Part shown: in pieces, positions 32,918-38,269 of the stretch | How positions within the stretch are numbered: position 1 is the first letter of the stretch | How the letters are laid out: each line of letters starts with the position of its first letter | NCBI GenBank assembly: GCA_021850865.1 | Contig: JAJZKN010000001.1 | Span: forward strand, 94,834-158,833 | DNA length: 64,000 nucleotides | From: a bacterium | GTDB taxonomy: Bacteria > Patescibacteriota > Saccharimonadia > Saccharimonadales > UBA4665 | Reading direction: 5' to 3' | Program-made: the position numbers and the translations under genes | The notes under the pieces: generated by a model | What the model saw: only the letters and a program-made list of their open reading frames with translations | Databases searched by the model: none | What the model was told of the DNA's origin: nothing

Positions 32918-33006
32918 GGAGGGGTCGCCTAGCGGCCTATGGCGCACGCTTGGAAAGCGTGTTGGGCTAAACACCCTCGAGGGTTCGAATCCCTCTCCCT
33001 CCGCCA
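32918..33006 (+). tRNA. tRNA-Ser(GGA)
   Basis: GGAGGGG acceptor, anticodon loop cttGGAaag, long variable arm, GGTTCGAATCC T arm, encoded CCA. Confidence 0.95.
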
Positions 33007-33234: not shown

Positions 33235-34173
33235 TCACACCACTTGAGAGCTGGCGCCAGAATCTCTACGGGCGGTACGCATCTTTCTTCTTTCACGCTC
33301 GTTCTTACCACCCCAAACACCATACTTCTCATCATTAACCAGTGCCTGCTCCAGGCACTCAACGCGAACACAACAACTGGCGCATATTTTTTTGGCCGGA
33401 TCGGAGCTTTCGCCCTTACCGGGAAAGAATCCGTTCGGATCGCTACCAACACATTCACCCTGACTAAGTTTACCGGAATGCAGTCCGGCTAAGCCTAGAA
33501 TAAACGATCTGGTATTTGTCTTTTGCTGATCTAAAACTTCTGCATTATTATATTCAACCCGCGAAGTACGGACTTCGCGGGCAAGTTGGTTTATTTGATT
33601 AAACCGTTCCGCAACTTCTGGCTGCTTTAATTCATCACGACCCGCAAGTAGACCGAGTACCCTCAAAGCGCTTGGTCTATTGATATCTGCCGGCAGTTTG
33701 ACACCATTTAAAATAAATTCCGCCAACGCTTTTCTTTCGTCACTCATTTTTGCGGTGATCTCTTCGACACTAGAACTAAAACGATCGGTTCCGTAATAGA
33801 GCTTTTCCCGTCGACTTGTGGCGCTATTCACGCTGTTATCAAGACTGTTAGTAATTTGATATTTTCCCTCTGATGCATCGTCATCGAGATAAATATGAGC
33901 GCCGGCCGAGCGGCTCAGTTTTCGGCCCGGGGCGAGCCGGGCTGCTACTTTGTCGGTGGAACCACTCCGTAAAGACTGCTGGCTGGTATAATTTACGGTC
34001 ATATCCGGACCCGAAAGCCCCAAAACACAGCCTTGGCCTATTTCTCTTACTTTGTTAATATCTTCCGTTACTCCCAAGTCTGAAGCCTTTGTTTGATCGG
34101 AGGCGACCTCAGTGCCTAGTTTAAAACGATCGGTTCCAGGCTTGGCTTCAATAGATTGAAAAATTTCACTCAT
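33235..34173 (-). CDS. WhiB-family-like protein with long N-terminal extension
   Basis: C-terminus ECVGSDPN...KKICASCCVRVECLEQALVNDEKYGVWGGKNERERRKM: C-x(n)-CxxCx5C plus GVWGG; likely start ATG at 34173 (ORF open to 34236). Confidence 0.85.
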   Translation of the reverse strand: MSEIFQSIEAKPGTDRFKLGTEVASDQTKASDLGVTEDINKVREIGQGCVLGLSGPDMTVNYTSQQSLRSGSTDKVAARLAPGRKLSRSAGAHIYLDDDASEGKYQITNSLDNSVNSATSRREKLYYGTDRFSSSVEEITAKMSDERKALAEFILNGVKLPADINRPSALRVLGLLAGRDELKQPEVAERFNQINQLAREVRTSRVEYNNAEVLDQQKTNTRSFILGLAGLHSGKLSQGECVGSDPNGFFPGKGESSDPAKKICASCCVRVECLEQALVNDEKYGVWGGKNERERRKMRTARRDSGASSQVV

Positions 34174-34316
34174 AATAGTTTTTGCTTTACCTCTACCTAT
34201 CTCCAAGATTAAACAAGCTTTTGTCGATCTATTCAATACCCAGTTTAATCAATTTCCGATTAGGAGATTAAAACGTAGCCAAGCGGCAAAGAGGCAAATT
34301 TCCAAACCAACCGGAC

Positions 34317-35044: not shown

Positions 35045-38000
35045 TTGGACGACGCAAACCAACCTGAACCCGAGCAAAGGGCGGGAAACGACGGCATCAC
35101 ACCGGCCGAGTTTGCGGCTCAACCGGTAACCCCAAGCGAAGTTACAGAAAGCACACCTTTACTTAACCCTGAACCAATCGAGGCCATCGACATGGCTGCC
35201 GGGGACAACACGTCAAACACCCTTAAGCCGCCGGAGATAATGTCGAACGAACAACCGGCCAACCAACCGCAAACTCCTAAGCGGCGACGGGCCGGACCGG
35301 AGAAGTTTTTGTTCCCCCGAGCGTTAAGAAACAAGCTGGGGAAGGCAGCTAGACCGCTAAGCATCCTGATCTTATTAATCATTGTCGGCGGCATGTCTTA
35401 CGGCGGCTATTATTACCACAATAGATACATGACAGTGGCGACTGTTCATCCGATAATCAGGTTTCAGGCCAAAATAGTCGGCTTTAAGATCATCTCTACG
35501 ACCCCATCCAATAACCAGCAAAATGTTAATCCGGCCACGCCGATAACACTGACCTTCAATCAACCGGTTAGTCCACAAAAGCTCTCAAGCGCTTTCTTTG
35601 TTTCGCCGACCATCAGCGGCAAATATTCCCAAGGCAACAATAAAGACCAGGTAATATTCACGCCCGGTGCAGCGTTTGCCCAAGGCACAAAAGTCCAAAT
35701 CATGATTAACGGGACTTTTCAGAGCCAAGAGGGAAGTAAACTGGGAGCTGATTGCTTTTACGGCTTTACGACTTCGATTCCGGATAGCGGCGTGCTATTC
35801 CAGGACCAGAACGGACTTATCGATACGCTCAGTACGGCCGCATCCGGCCAAAAACTTAACTACACACTTTTAGTGGGAAGTAAGGTAGCCGCTTCCGCCA
35901 ACAGCAAAATTACACTTTATCACGGCAACTTAAACCTACTGCTTAATTCGCTGGTTTACAAAAACACTACCGCGTACGGCGTTACCAGCCAGGACTTTGT
36001 TAACCAATATGTTGACACTACCGGCCTGAACGCAATCAGTACTTCCAACGGAATAGCCAACAACCAAAGTTATAGCGTAAACCAGGGCGACGGTATCTAC
36101 CTGGCGGTAGCAACCGGCTCAACCGGTAAACAGTTAGGTTATGTCTGGATCGTTATCAGTAATTTCGGCGTACTGATGCGCCAAGACGACCAGAAAATCG
36201 TTTATGACGTTCAGAACTTCAGCGCCGGCAGAGTAGATGTGCCGGCCAATGTCGGCTTTTACAACTTAAACGACAGCGTTAATTTACTTGCCAGCCAGAC
36301 TGCCAATGGCTTAACAACCGAAACTTTACCGCTTATGCCTAGCGTCGACGTTATGGTTGCCTCATTTAACGGCGAATACTCAATCGTACCGGTATCGGTA
36401 TTCGAAAGCCAGGGAGATATCAGGGCGGATCGAAACCTGTCCGTAGCCCAAGATATTTTTGGCCTTACTAACAAGCCGACTTACCAGGTTGGCAACACGA
36501 TTCATATAGCCGGGTTTGTCCGCCAGGACAACGATGCGCAGTACAGCGTTCCAAGCGGCGGTACTTTGCAAATGTACATAGCTAATCCAACCACCGGCGG
36601 ACATCTTCTAGACTTTAACGCCACTATCGGTACAAACGGAATGTTTTCGGCTAACATTCCCACCAGCGCCGCCTGGCTGAGCAGCGGCACGACTCTTAAT
36701 AAGTTCCAGATTTTTGCCGATGCTCTAGGGTCAACGCCGACAGCCTTTATTGCAGATACCAGTGTAGCCAGCTTTAGCCTGACCAACCAACCACCGTCCT
36801 TAACCAATATCAGCGTCCAGTTTTCGCGTAGTTCATACCTGCCAACCGATACCATTTCCGCTCAAATAACCGCCGACAACACAGCGACCGGACAACCATT
36901 AGCCAACGCCAGTATTAACGTGCATATTTTCAGTAAGGATTATTACGAGAATGACCCGAGCGATAACTTTCTGTCATTCGGCAGTACGGGCAGTGAAATC
37001 AAGAATAGTCCGCAAACCGTCCAACTTAACGGCAGCGGCCAAGCAGTCGTCAACATCCCGGTCAGCGAACTGCCAAGCGACGGCTATAGCCAGCAGGTAA
37101 CCCTTCAGGCAAATGTTGCCGGGTCCCCGCAAGGAGCCGGTGCCGCCGGCGGTGCGTCGACAATCGTCCATCAAGGTAACGGCATTTTAGTGTTTGGCAT
37201 GGGCCGGACGATTATTGCTCCGGGTGGGGTGTTGATCGGCCGGGTTTACGCCGAACAACTCAACGGCTCGCCGCTACCCAACGCAACTATCAATTACACA
37301 CTGACAGATAATGCATCTAGTCCAAATGGCAATGCGGTGATCGCTAGCGGCACTACGTCAGCCGATTCCAAAGGATATGCCCAAATCGATATCAATCTCC
37401 CCGCGAACGTCAAACAGGGAGACAGCCTGACCCTTAAAGCCATCACTAGTGATTCGATGAACAATCAAATCGAAGCCCAGAACTATTATTATGTCCAGGA
37501 TCCGAGCGGCGCCGAAGACTACAGCGGTGCTCAGCTTGGCGAGCTGGATGTATCCGGATCATCCGGCAACGTTCAAGTCGGCCAGACGCTTAACCTGACA
37601 ATTAATGCGCCCCGGGCAATGCGAGTAATGGTCACCATGGACCGGGGACGGATCTATAACCCGCGGATGCTTAATCTGAACGCCGGCAATAACAGTTTTT
37701 CAATCATTGTCACCAAACAACTGGCGCCATCATTCACCCTGACCTTTGCCTATTTTCAAAACGGTAATTATCATTCGGAGGGCACGTCTTTCAATGTCAG
37801 CGAACCGCAGCAAAAAGCCAGCCTGACACTCAGTGGCGCCAACCAGACCGCCGTGGCCAATCAGCCACTTTCGCTTAAAGTGAATGTCCGGGATGCCGCC
37901 GGTAACCCCCTCCAAACAGGCTTAATTGTCAGCGTAGTTAGCGCCACCGCCTACGACTTATATAATCAAGTCGTGCCCTCGATGTATGCGTCACTTTACT

Positions 38001-38269
38001 CATCCAGACCGCTCATGACCAGCTCTTCATCCTCGTTAACCAATATTGGCAGTGGTGGTGGTAAATGCGGCGGTGGAGGCTTTGGTGCGCCAAGCTTCGC
38101 CAACGCCGTTGGCACAACCCTACTTTGGCAGCCCGACTTAACAACCGATGCTAACGGTAACGCGACAATCACTTTTACTCCGCCAAAAGGCTCATGGCAG
38201 GTCAATATCTATTCGATGGACGCCAACAGCGTCGTCGGCAGCACGTCAGCTATCGTTAACGCCAATTAA
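35045..38269 (+). CDS. large surface protein with N-terminal TM, Ig-like domains and C-terminal alpha-2-macroglobulin-like domain
   Basis: TTG start; Big_5-like PSNNQQNVNPATPITLTFNQPVSP; MG-like repeats; TLLWQPDLTTDANGNATITFTPPKGSWQVNIYSMD matches the A2M domain pattern. Confidence 0.8.
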   Translation: MDDANQPEPEQRAGNDGITPAEFAAQPVTPSEVTESTPLLNPEPIEAIDMAAGDNTSNTLKPPEIMSNEQPANQPQTPKRRRAGPEKFLFPRALRNKLGKAARPLSILILLIIVGGMSYGGYYYHNRYMTVATVHPIIRFQAKIVGFKIISTTPSNNQQNVNPATPITLTFNQPVSPQKLSSAFFVSPTISGKYSQGNNKDQVIFTPGAAFAQGTKVQIMINGTFQSQEGSKLGADCFYGFTTSIPDSGVLFQDQNGLIDTLSTAASGQKLNYTLLVGSKVAASANSKITLYHGNLNLLLNSLVYKNTTAYGVTSQDFVNQYVDTTGLNAISTSNGIANNQSYSVNQGDGIYLAVATGSTGKQLGYVWIVISNFGVLMRQDDQKIVYDVQNFSAGRVDVPANVGFYNLNDSVNLLASQTANGLTTETLPLMPSVDVMVASFNGEYSIVPVSVFESQGDIRADRNLSVAQDIFGLTNKPTYQVGNTIHIAGFVRQDNDAQYSVPSGGTLQMYIANPTTGGHLLDFNATIGTNGMFSANIPTSAAWLSSGTTLNKFQIFADALGSTPTAFIADTSVASFSLTNQPPSLTNISVQFSRSSYLPTDTISAQITADNTATGQPLANASINVHIFSKDYYENDPSDNFLSFGSTGSEIKNSPQTVQLNGSGQAVVNIPVSELPSDGYSQQVTLQANVAGSPQGAGAAGGASTIVHQGNGILVFGMGRTIIAPGGVLIGRVYAEQLNGSPLPNATINYTLTDNASSPNGNAVIASGTTSADSKGYAQIDINLPANVKQGDSLTLKAITSDSMNNQIEAQNYYYVQDPSGAEDYSGAQLGELDVSGSSGNVQVGQTLNLTINAPRAMRVMVTMDRGRIYNPRMLNLNAGNNSFSIIVTKQLAPSFTLTFAYFQNGNYHSEGTSFNVSEPQQKASLTLSGANQTAVANQPLSLKVNVRDAAGNPLQTGLIVSVVSATAYDLYNQVVPSMYASLYSSRPLMTSSSSSLTNIGSGGGKCGGGGFGAPSFANAVGTTLLWQPDLTTDANGNATITFTPPKGSWQVNIYSMDANSVVGSTSAIVNAN

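Follow-up and report, generated by a model that had tools for sequence, protein, structure and literature searches.

A WhiB-like protein with an additional conserved domain in a Saccharibacteria genome, and relatives linked to sigma70 in the class Saccharimonadia

We analysed a 64,000-nucleotide stretch (the window) of contig JAJZKN010000001.1 in GenBank assembly GCA_021850865.1, positions 94,834 to 158,833, from a bacterium of the order Saccharimonadales. The window carries wbl, a gene for a WhiB-like (Wbl) regulator with an uncharacterised second domain (Table 1). The frame codes for 333 amino acids if read from the TTG at 34236 and 312 if read from the ATG at 34173; the ATG is the more likely start, with a GGAG/GAGG-type stretch upstream of it. 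Translation ends in ...GECVGSDPNGFFPGKGESSDPAKKICASCCVRVECLEQALVNDEKYGVWGGKNERERRKMRTARRDSGASSQVV. A preliminary description made from the letters alone had pointed to a WhiB-type signature of four cysteines, GVWGG, and a basic tail at 33238–33453, an interval that runs correctly from the first cysteine to the last codon, and had given the N-terminal region as about 240 amino acids, which is right for the ATG start.

Table 1. Coordinates of wbl, of the parts of its product, and of the features beside it in the window
Feature	Coordinates	Strand	Basis or detail
wbl gene	33235..34236	-	stop-free frame; domain homology across genera; sequence upstream of ATG
N-terminal region without recognisable domain	33760..34173	-	no Pfam match over cut-off; low-confidence model
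pre-Wbl domain, ~65 residues, predicted all-helical	33568..33759	-	profile matches, always directly before Whib
Wbl (WhiB) domain, residues 259-319	33280..33462	-	Pfam PF02467 and PDB 8dy9 matches
Four cluster cysteines	33355..33453	-	C262 33451-33453; C285 33382-33384; C288 33373-33375; C294 33355-33357
Phe-Phe pair F270-F271	33424..33429	-	translation; equivalent to WhiB1 F17-F18
GVWGG loop, residues 306-310	33307..33321	-	translation; W308 = WhiB1 W60
Basic C-terminal tail KNERERRKMRTARRDSGASSQVV	33238..33306	-	translation
tRNA-Ser(GGA), borders variable slot holding wbl	32918..33006	+	linkage to ABC-transporter gene kept in 28/30 family loci
Slot neighbour, 180-aa protein, one apparent N-terminal membrane segment	34317..34859	-	translation; no Pfam family
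Slot neighbour, alpha-2-macroglobulin-like surface protein	35045..38269	+	Big_5, MG2, MG4, A2M_BRD

The WhiB-type signature was borne out by Pfam, where the protein matches Whib (PF02467) at 70.4 bits against a curated cut-off of 23.6 (E 1.9e-19). The best solved relative of the domain is Streptomyces WhiB (PDB 8dy9, 1.2e-19; 8dy7, E ~1e-19), followed in the PDB search by WhiB4, WhiB1, WhiB7, and WhiB3. No NCBIfam model matches the protein, a search of the defence library gave no match, and a Pfam scan found neither sigma70 region 2 nor region 4 in it. The cysteines are spaced C-x22-C-x2-C-x5-C, and all four are invariant across alignment A1; the preliminary description had the x2 and x5 right and gave x23 for the first interval, although there are 22 letters in its quoted string. 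The G[I/V]W[G/A]G loop is a defining feature of the Wbl family, and F17 and F18 of WhiB1 contact sigma region 4 (PMC10245118). By sequence, then, the window gene encodes a true Wbl protein. The genome (G000) carries another wbl, a diverged one (contig C8:10481-10651, locus L102/L021) in a 167-aa frame; it reads GVAGG in place of GVWGG and has thereby lost the Trp of its sigma-binding loop.

Among known proteins, the domain shares with the Streptomyces WhiB/WhiB2 type (8dy9/8dy7) its cysteine spacing, FFP, ICxxCxVRxECLxxAL, YG[VI]WGG, and an ERERR tail. Those chains are compact (87 aa), single-domain, and actinobacterial, whereas the window protein has 312–333 residues, carries the pre-Wbl domain, and lacks the N-terminal Trp. 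WhiB7/WblC is likewise without that Trp and has the four cysteines and the WGG loop, but it ends in an AT-hook RGRP tail that the window protein does not have. Actinophage WhiB proteins match the domain, at best with ~60–73% identity; none covers most of the window protein, and the named records listed all come from actinobacterial phages.

The preliminary description was right that the N-terminus is unlike compact Wbls, and there is more to it than an unusual length, because it holds a recurring uncharacterised domain. Residues ~159–224 recur in five genomes (G008, G015, G088, G100, G101) with the conserved pattern YILNGxxxP...LAGxxxLxDxxVxxRF. A profile of this pre-Wbl domain independently found a sixth genome that was not part of the profile (G543, E 1e-9) as well as a second gene in G101, and in every case found it immediately precedes Whib. 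Neither Pfam nor the PDB contains a match to the domain, and it was absent from the twenty actinobacterial genomes examined. Two of the relatives are fusions of the order superfamily 2 (SF2) helicase, pre-Wbl, and Whib: a 767-aa frame in G008 and a 604-aa frame in G543 that is cut by the contig end. Their helicase parts match ResIII and Helicase_C over the Pfam cut-offs, with weak matches to restriction and defence helicases. AlphaFold modelled the pre-Wbl domain alone as helical (predicted local distance difference test, pLDDT, 63), and a PDB fold search with that model gave nothing significant, its matches to sigma region 4 at E ~7 being discounted. We considered the domain as a decayed sigma region 4 and rejected this, since hhalign against thirty RpoD sequences gives a probability of 0.1%. 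The region before the domain is probably largely disordered, going by its low-confidence model. In one relative (G015:C42, locus L090 near 2276) a TAA interrupts the frame just ahead of the conserved domain, so that either the gene starts later or its N-terminus is broken.

Wbls turned out to be widespread in this class. Whib scored over its cut-off in 57 of the 100 nearest genomes and in 110 of 393 Saccharimonadia genomes, representing 77 of 152 genera, with patchy presence within genera. In an even draw from the phylum, 18 of 37 Saccharimonadia had it, compared with 0 of 343 genomes from the remaining classes. Among the named controls, every Actinomycetes and Acidimicrobiia genome examined was positive, and two Coriobacteriia, a Solirubrobacterales metagenome-assembled genome (MAG), Chloroflexi, Firmicutes, Cyanobacteria, and five other members of the candidate phyla radiation (CPR) were negative. 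Contamination is ruled out as a general explanation because five of the positive genomes (G022, G094, G125, G604, G626) consist of a single contig. A search of the named genomes for relatives of the window protein found none, and in the phage and plasmid collections the named Whib hits, among the matches listed, were all actinobacterial. Wbls have been described as present only in actinomycetes (PMC7363131) and as an actinobacterial signature (PMC4255298). The preliminary description had followed this classical restriction to Actinobacteria and their phages, and in Saccharimonadia Wbls are far commoner than it supposed. An open-access literature search found no report of Wbls in Saccharibacteria; subscription papers and preprints were outside that search, and entries for such proteins may already exist in public domain databases. 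One candidate prior report (PMC12369343) was set aside because it speaks of the host's WhiB. What is new here is the lineage and the domain architecture in which a known family occurs.

Several further arrangements were seen. Two to four wbl genes can stand in tandem within a single saccharibacterial locus (L244 in G545:C14, L015 in G079:C3, L092 in G100:C122), and the cluster in G545 includes a sigma70-Wbl fusion. At six loci (L240, L087, L095, L088, L026, L249) an N-terminal Wbl is followed by a long winged-helix-looking C-terminal region, with weak MarR/GntR-type matches in L240 and L095. An unassigned 30-kb viral contig (L223, IMGVR_UViG_3300003320_000074; 45% GC) carries a wbl and also encodes a family A DNA polymerase and an endolysin/tail-like protein. 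A phage of this kind could move wbl genes between hosts.

We built a Wbl tree from 156 domains and 65 columns. Saccharibacterial and actinobacterial rows are mixed in groups that we take, from our own reading of the sequences, to be of the WhiB, WblE/WhiB1, WblA/WhiB4, and Acidimicrobiia types. With long branches removed, a single saccharibacterial clade is rejected by the approximately unbiased (AU) test (log-likelihood difference 385, p-AU 3.7e-48). At least four changes between the groups are required by branches with strong support, and near-identical WhiB-type domains occur in both. The rejected clade and these branches demonstrate several Wbl exchanges between Saccharibacteria and Actinobacteria. 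We infer that the direction was into Saccharibacteria because Wbl is ubiquitous in Actinobacteria and patchy in Saccharibacteria. The preliminary suggestion of transfer from Actinobacteria thus holds for the class as a whole, given the interleaved rows, the rejected single clade, and the negative other classes; it does not extend to naming a donor for the window copy.

Wbls of this class are also tied physically to sigma70. There are two independent sigma70-Wbl fusion proteins, from different families, and both are stop-free and distant from contig ends. One (G029, L085:5766-7301, minus strand) matches Sigma70_r2 at 37.7 bits and Whib at 29.8 bits; the other (G545, L244, minus strand) has Sigma70_r2, r4, and Whib over their cut-offs and r3 just below. 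In the 78 genomes where both genes were located, taking the region-1.2 gene as sigma70, wbl lies within 5 kb of it in 24, against 1.33 expected by random placement; these genomes are related, and the nominal p is not meant literally. The linked genomes span sixteen genera and three families, mostly one family (f35). All linked pairs are on the same strand, and wbl is downstream in at least 23 of the 24; the orientation of one pair (G660) is ambiguous, with two sigma copies present. Where loci were examined in detail, wbl occupies the gap that separates rpoD from polA (dnaG-rpoD-[wbl]-polA). This gap holds Wbls of different types, which argues against a single inherited linkage. The two genes of G604 share a strand, with wbl 89 bp behind rpoD, while in G360 an opposite-strand gene stands between rpoD and wbl, so not every sigma70-wbl pair is an operon. 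Besides RpoD, nearly every genome examined encodes another conserved protein, ~350 aa long, that partly matches Sigma70_r4 (positions 7–49; e.g. G000:C6:160888-161025).

In Mycobacterium tuberculosis, Ala substitution of WhiB3 F31, F32, or W76, or of sigmaA H516, abolishes binding (PMC10245118). The window Wbl keeps the corresponding interface residues F270, F271, and W308. We consider it likely that wbl encodes a horizontally acquired iron-sulfur (Fe-S) regulator that acts on sigma70 and carries a lineage-specific extra domain. The C-terminal domain most likely binds a [4Fe-4S] cluster through its four cysteines, and the cluster pocket, Phe-Phe pair, and GVWGG loop most likely dock on sigma70 region 4. 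Oxygen (O2) or nitric oxide (NO) would then, most likely, alter the cluster and change promoter choice, and the basic tail may touch DNA. The pre-Wbl domain is probably a second module bringing in another partner, which would be a nucleic acid or a helicase-linked process because the domain joins Wbl to an SF2 helicase in two relatives. The family itself would have reached Saccharibacteria several times from Actinobacteria or their phages.

Several observations weigh against this account. The segment before the first cysteine (LHSGKLSQGEC) has no Trp; the N-terminal Trp (W3 of WhiB1) is not universal in Wbls and is missing from WhiB7 (PMC10245118), and as a non-defining feature its absence does not disqualify the protein from the family. 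Run without an alignment, AlphaFold gave no usable full-length model (pLDDT 38). The window wbl is not adjacent to a sigma gene, and rpoD was not found in the 68%-complete genome. Tracing its origin is also difficult: the window copy has no strongly supported place, its nearest tree rows by path are Acidimicrobiia-type Wbls (WQDYANCLGVDPDLFFPERGASTREAKEVC..., L197, L198) from MAGs in which no pre-Wbl domain was found, and from 65 columns a donor cannot be named. A further objection concerns RpoD. In our register with M. tuberculosis SigA, the H516 position is Lys in 29 of 29 Saccharimonadia sequences read (LRK[H/N]..), equally in genomes with and without wbl, and another CPR class keeps HP at that site. 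A His stands one position later in 28 of the 29. Since H516 is not conserved, the interface cannot be identical to the actinobacterial one; either it has shifted, or some saccharibacterial Wbls do something else.

If it has shifted, a broader picture can be proposed, which we hold tentatively and with less confidence than the account of the window gene. Saccharibacteria may have built a Wbl-sigma70 system of their own from actinobacterial genes, made up of the rpoD-polA wbl, the covalent sigma70-Wbl, and a class-specific pre-Wbl module that ties helicases to the Fe-S sensor. In this picture the window gene would belong to the pre-Wbl branch as a free-standing representative, while sigma and Wbl would have altered their interface jointly, with the His moved by one position.

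If the proteins do something else, the Wbl fold may have been kept as an Fe-S module while sigma was abandoned, serving together with pre-Wbl a nucleic-acid enzyme or a defence-like machine. Two helicase fusions from different families would fit this, as would the weak resemblance of their helicase to restriction and defence helicases, the loss of H516, and the missing Trp of the window copy. The window protein has no helicase, however, and it retains the Phe-Phe pair and GVWGG that serve sigma binding, while elsewhere in the class Wbls adjoin sigma70 or are fused with it. We regard this explanation as unlikely.

The repeated transfers could themselves be questioned if a common ancestor of Saccharibacteria and Actinobacteria, or a single ancient acquirer, already had several Wbl copies that were then lost patchily. 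Many saccharibacterial Wbls, including the window copy, are placed deep in the tree without resolution, and strongly supported branches force only four to five changes. Against this ancestry stand the empty result for the other classes of the phylum (0/343) and for the Chloroflexi, Firmicutes, and Cyanobacteria controls, the near-identity of WhiB-type domains in both groups, and the patchiness inside genera, and we find it improbable.

Far less likely still is an exported protein whose target is the sigma factor of an actinobacterial host. Cultivated Saccharibacteria are described (PMC10633639) as living mostly on Actinobacteria, whose sigmaA is a known Wbl partner (PMC10245118) and has the H516 that Saccharimonadia RpoD lacks. 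The translated window protein shows no signal peptide or export motif, though, and the sigma70-Wbl fusions and rpoD linkage point inward.

In the window, the space from tRNA-Ser to clp holds wbl, the 180-aa protein, the alpha-2-macroglobulin-like protein, and a 120-aa protein. We found no copy of wbl at the tRNA-Ser site in a tblastn search of relatives' loci, and in one congener (L285) clp begins ~600 bp past the tRNA, so wbl is part of a variable slot beside the tRNA gene. A search for direct repeats around the slot gave no convincing attachment site. The GC content of wbl is 46%, compared with 47% for the window, which gives no sign that the gene came very recently from a high-GC donor. The alpha-2-macroglobulin-like protein ends early in its A2M domain, has an odd GGGKCGGGGFG stretch, and is apparently short or truncated.

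RpoB of the genome is 77% identical to that of one MAG; next come a record titled Candidatus Saccharibacteria and one further MAG, both at 68%, and all others are at or below 60%. The RpoB tree places the genome with a named Candidatus Saccharibacteria (SH-like approximate likelihood ratio test, SH-aLRT, 100), inside the CPR and apart from Actinobacteria. The ABC-transporter ATPase gene adjoining wbl is 76–88% identical in congeners. This identity and tRNA linkage, with the RpoB placement, mark the contig as saccharibacterial; assignment to Actinobacteria, which the preliminary description had named as counting against its reading, is not borne out. A misbinned actinobacterial contig or a chimeric assembly, which a metagenome-like assembly (571 kb, 9 contigs, 68% complete) might invite, is refuted for practical purposes by the 245-kb length of the contig, its vertically inherited neighbour genes, the matching GC of wbl, and the single-contig genomes with Wbls.

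A Wbl regulator acquired from Actinobacteria or their phages and acting on sigma70 remains the likeliest account of the window gene. Wbls are widespread in a class of tiny episymbionts, where they occur in new domain arrangements and in physical connection with sigma70 genes. With genomes of ~0.6–1.5 Mb, these bacteria are a naturally simplified system for asking what a Wbl does, and the sigma70-Wbl fusions are ready-made covalent sigma-Wbl proteins for structural work. With this family the transfer of regulators from host to epibiont can be put to a test, and the Wbls themselves are candidates for the means by which Saccharibacteria detect O2 or NO near their host.
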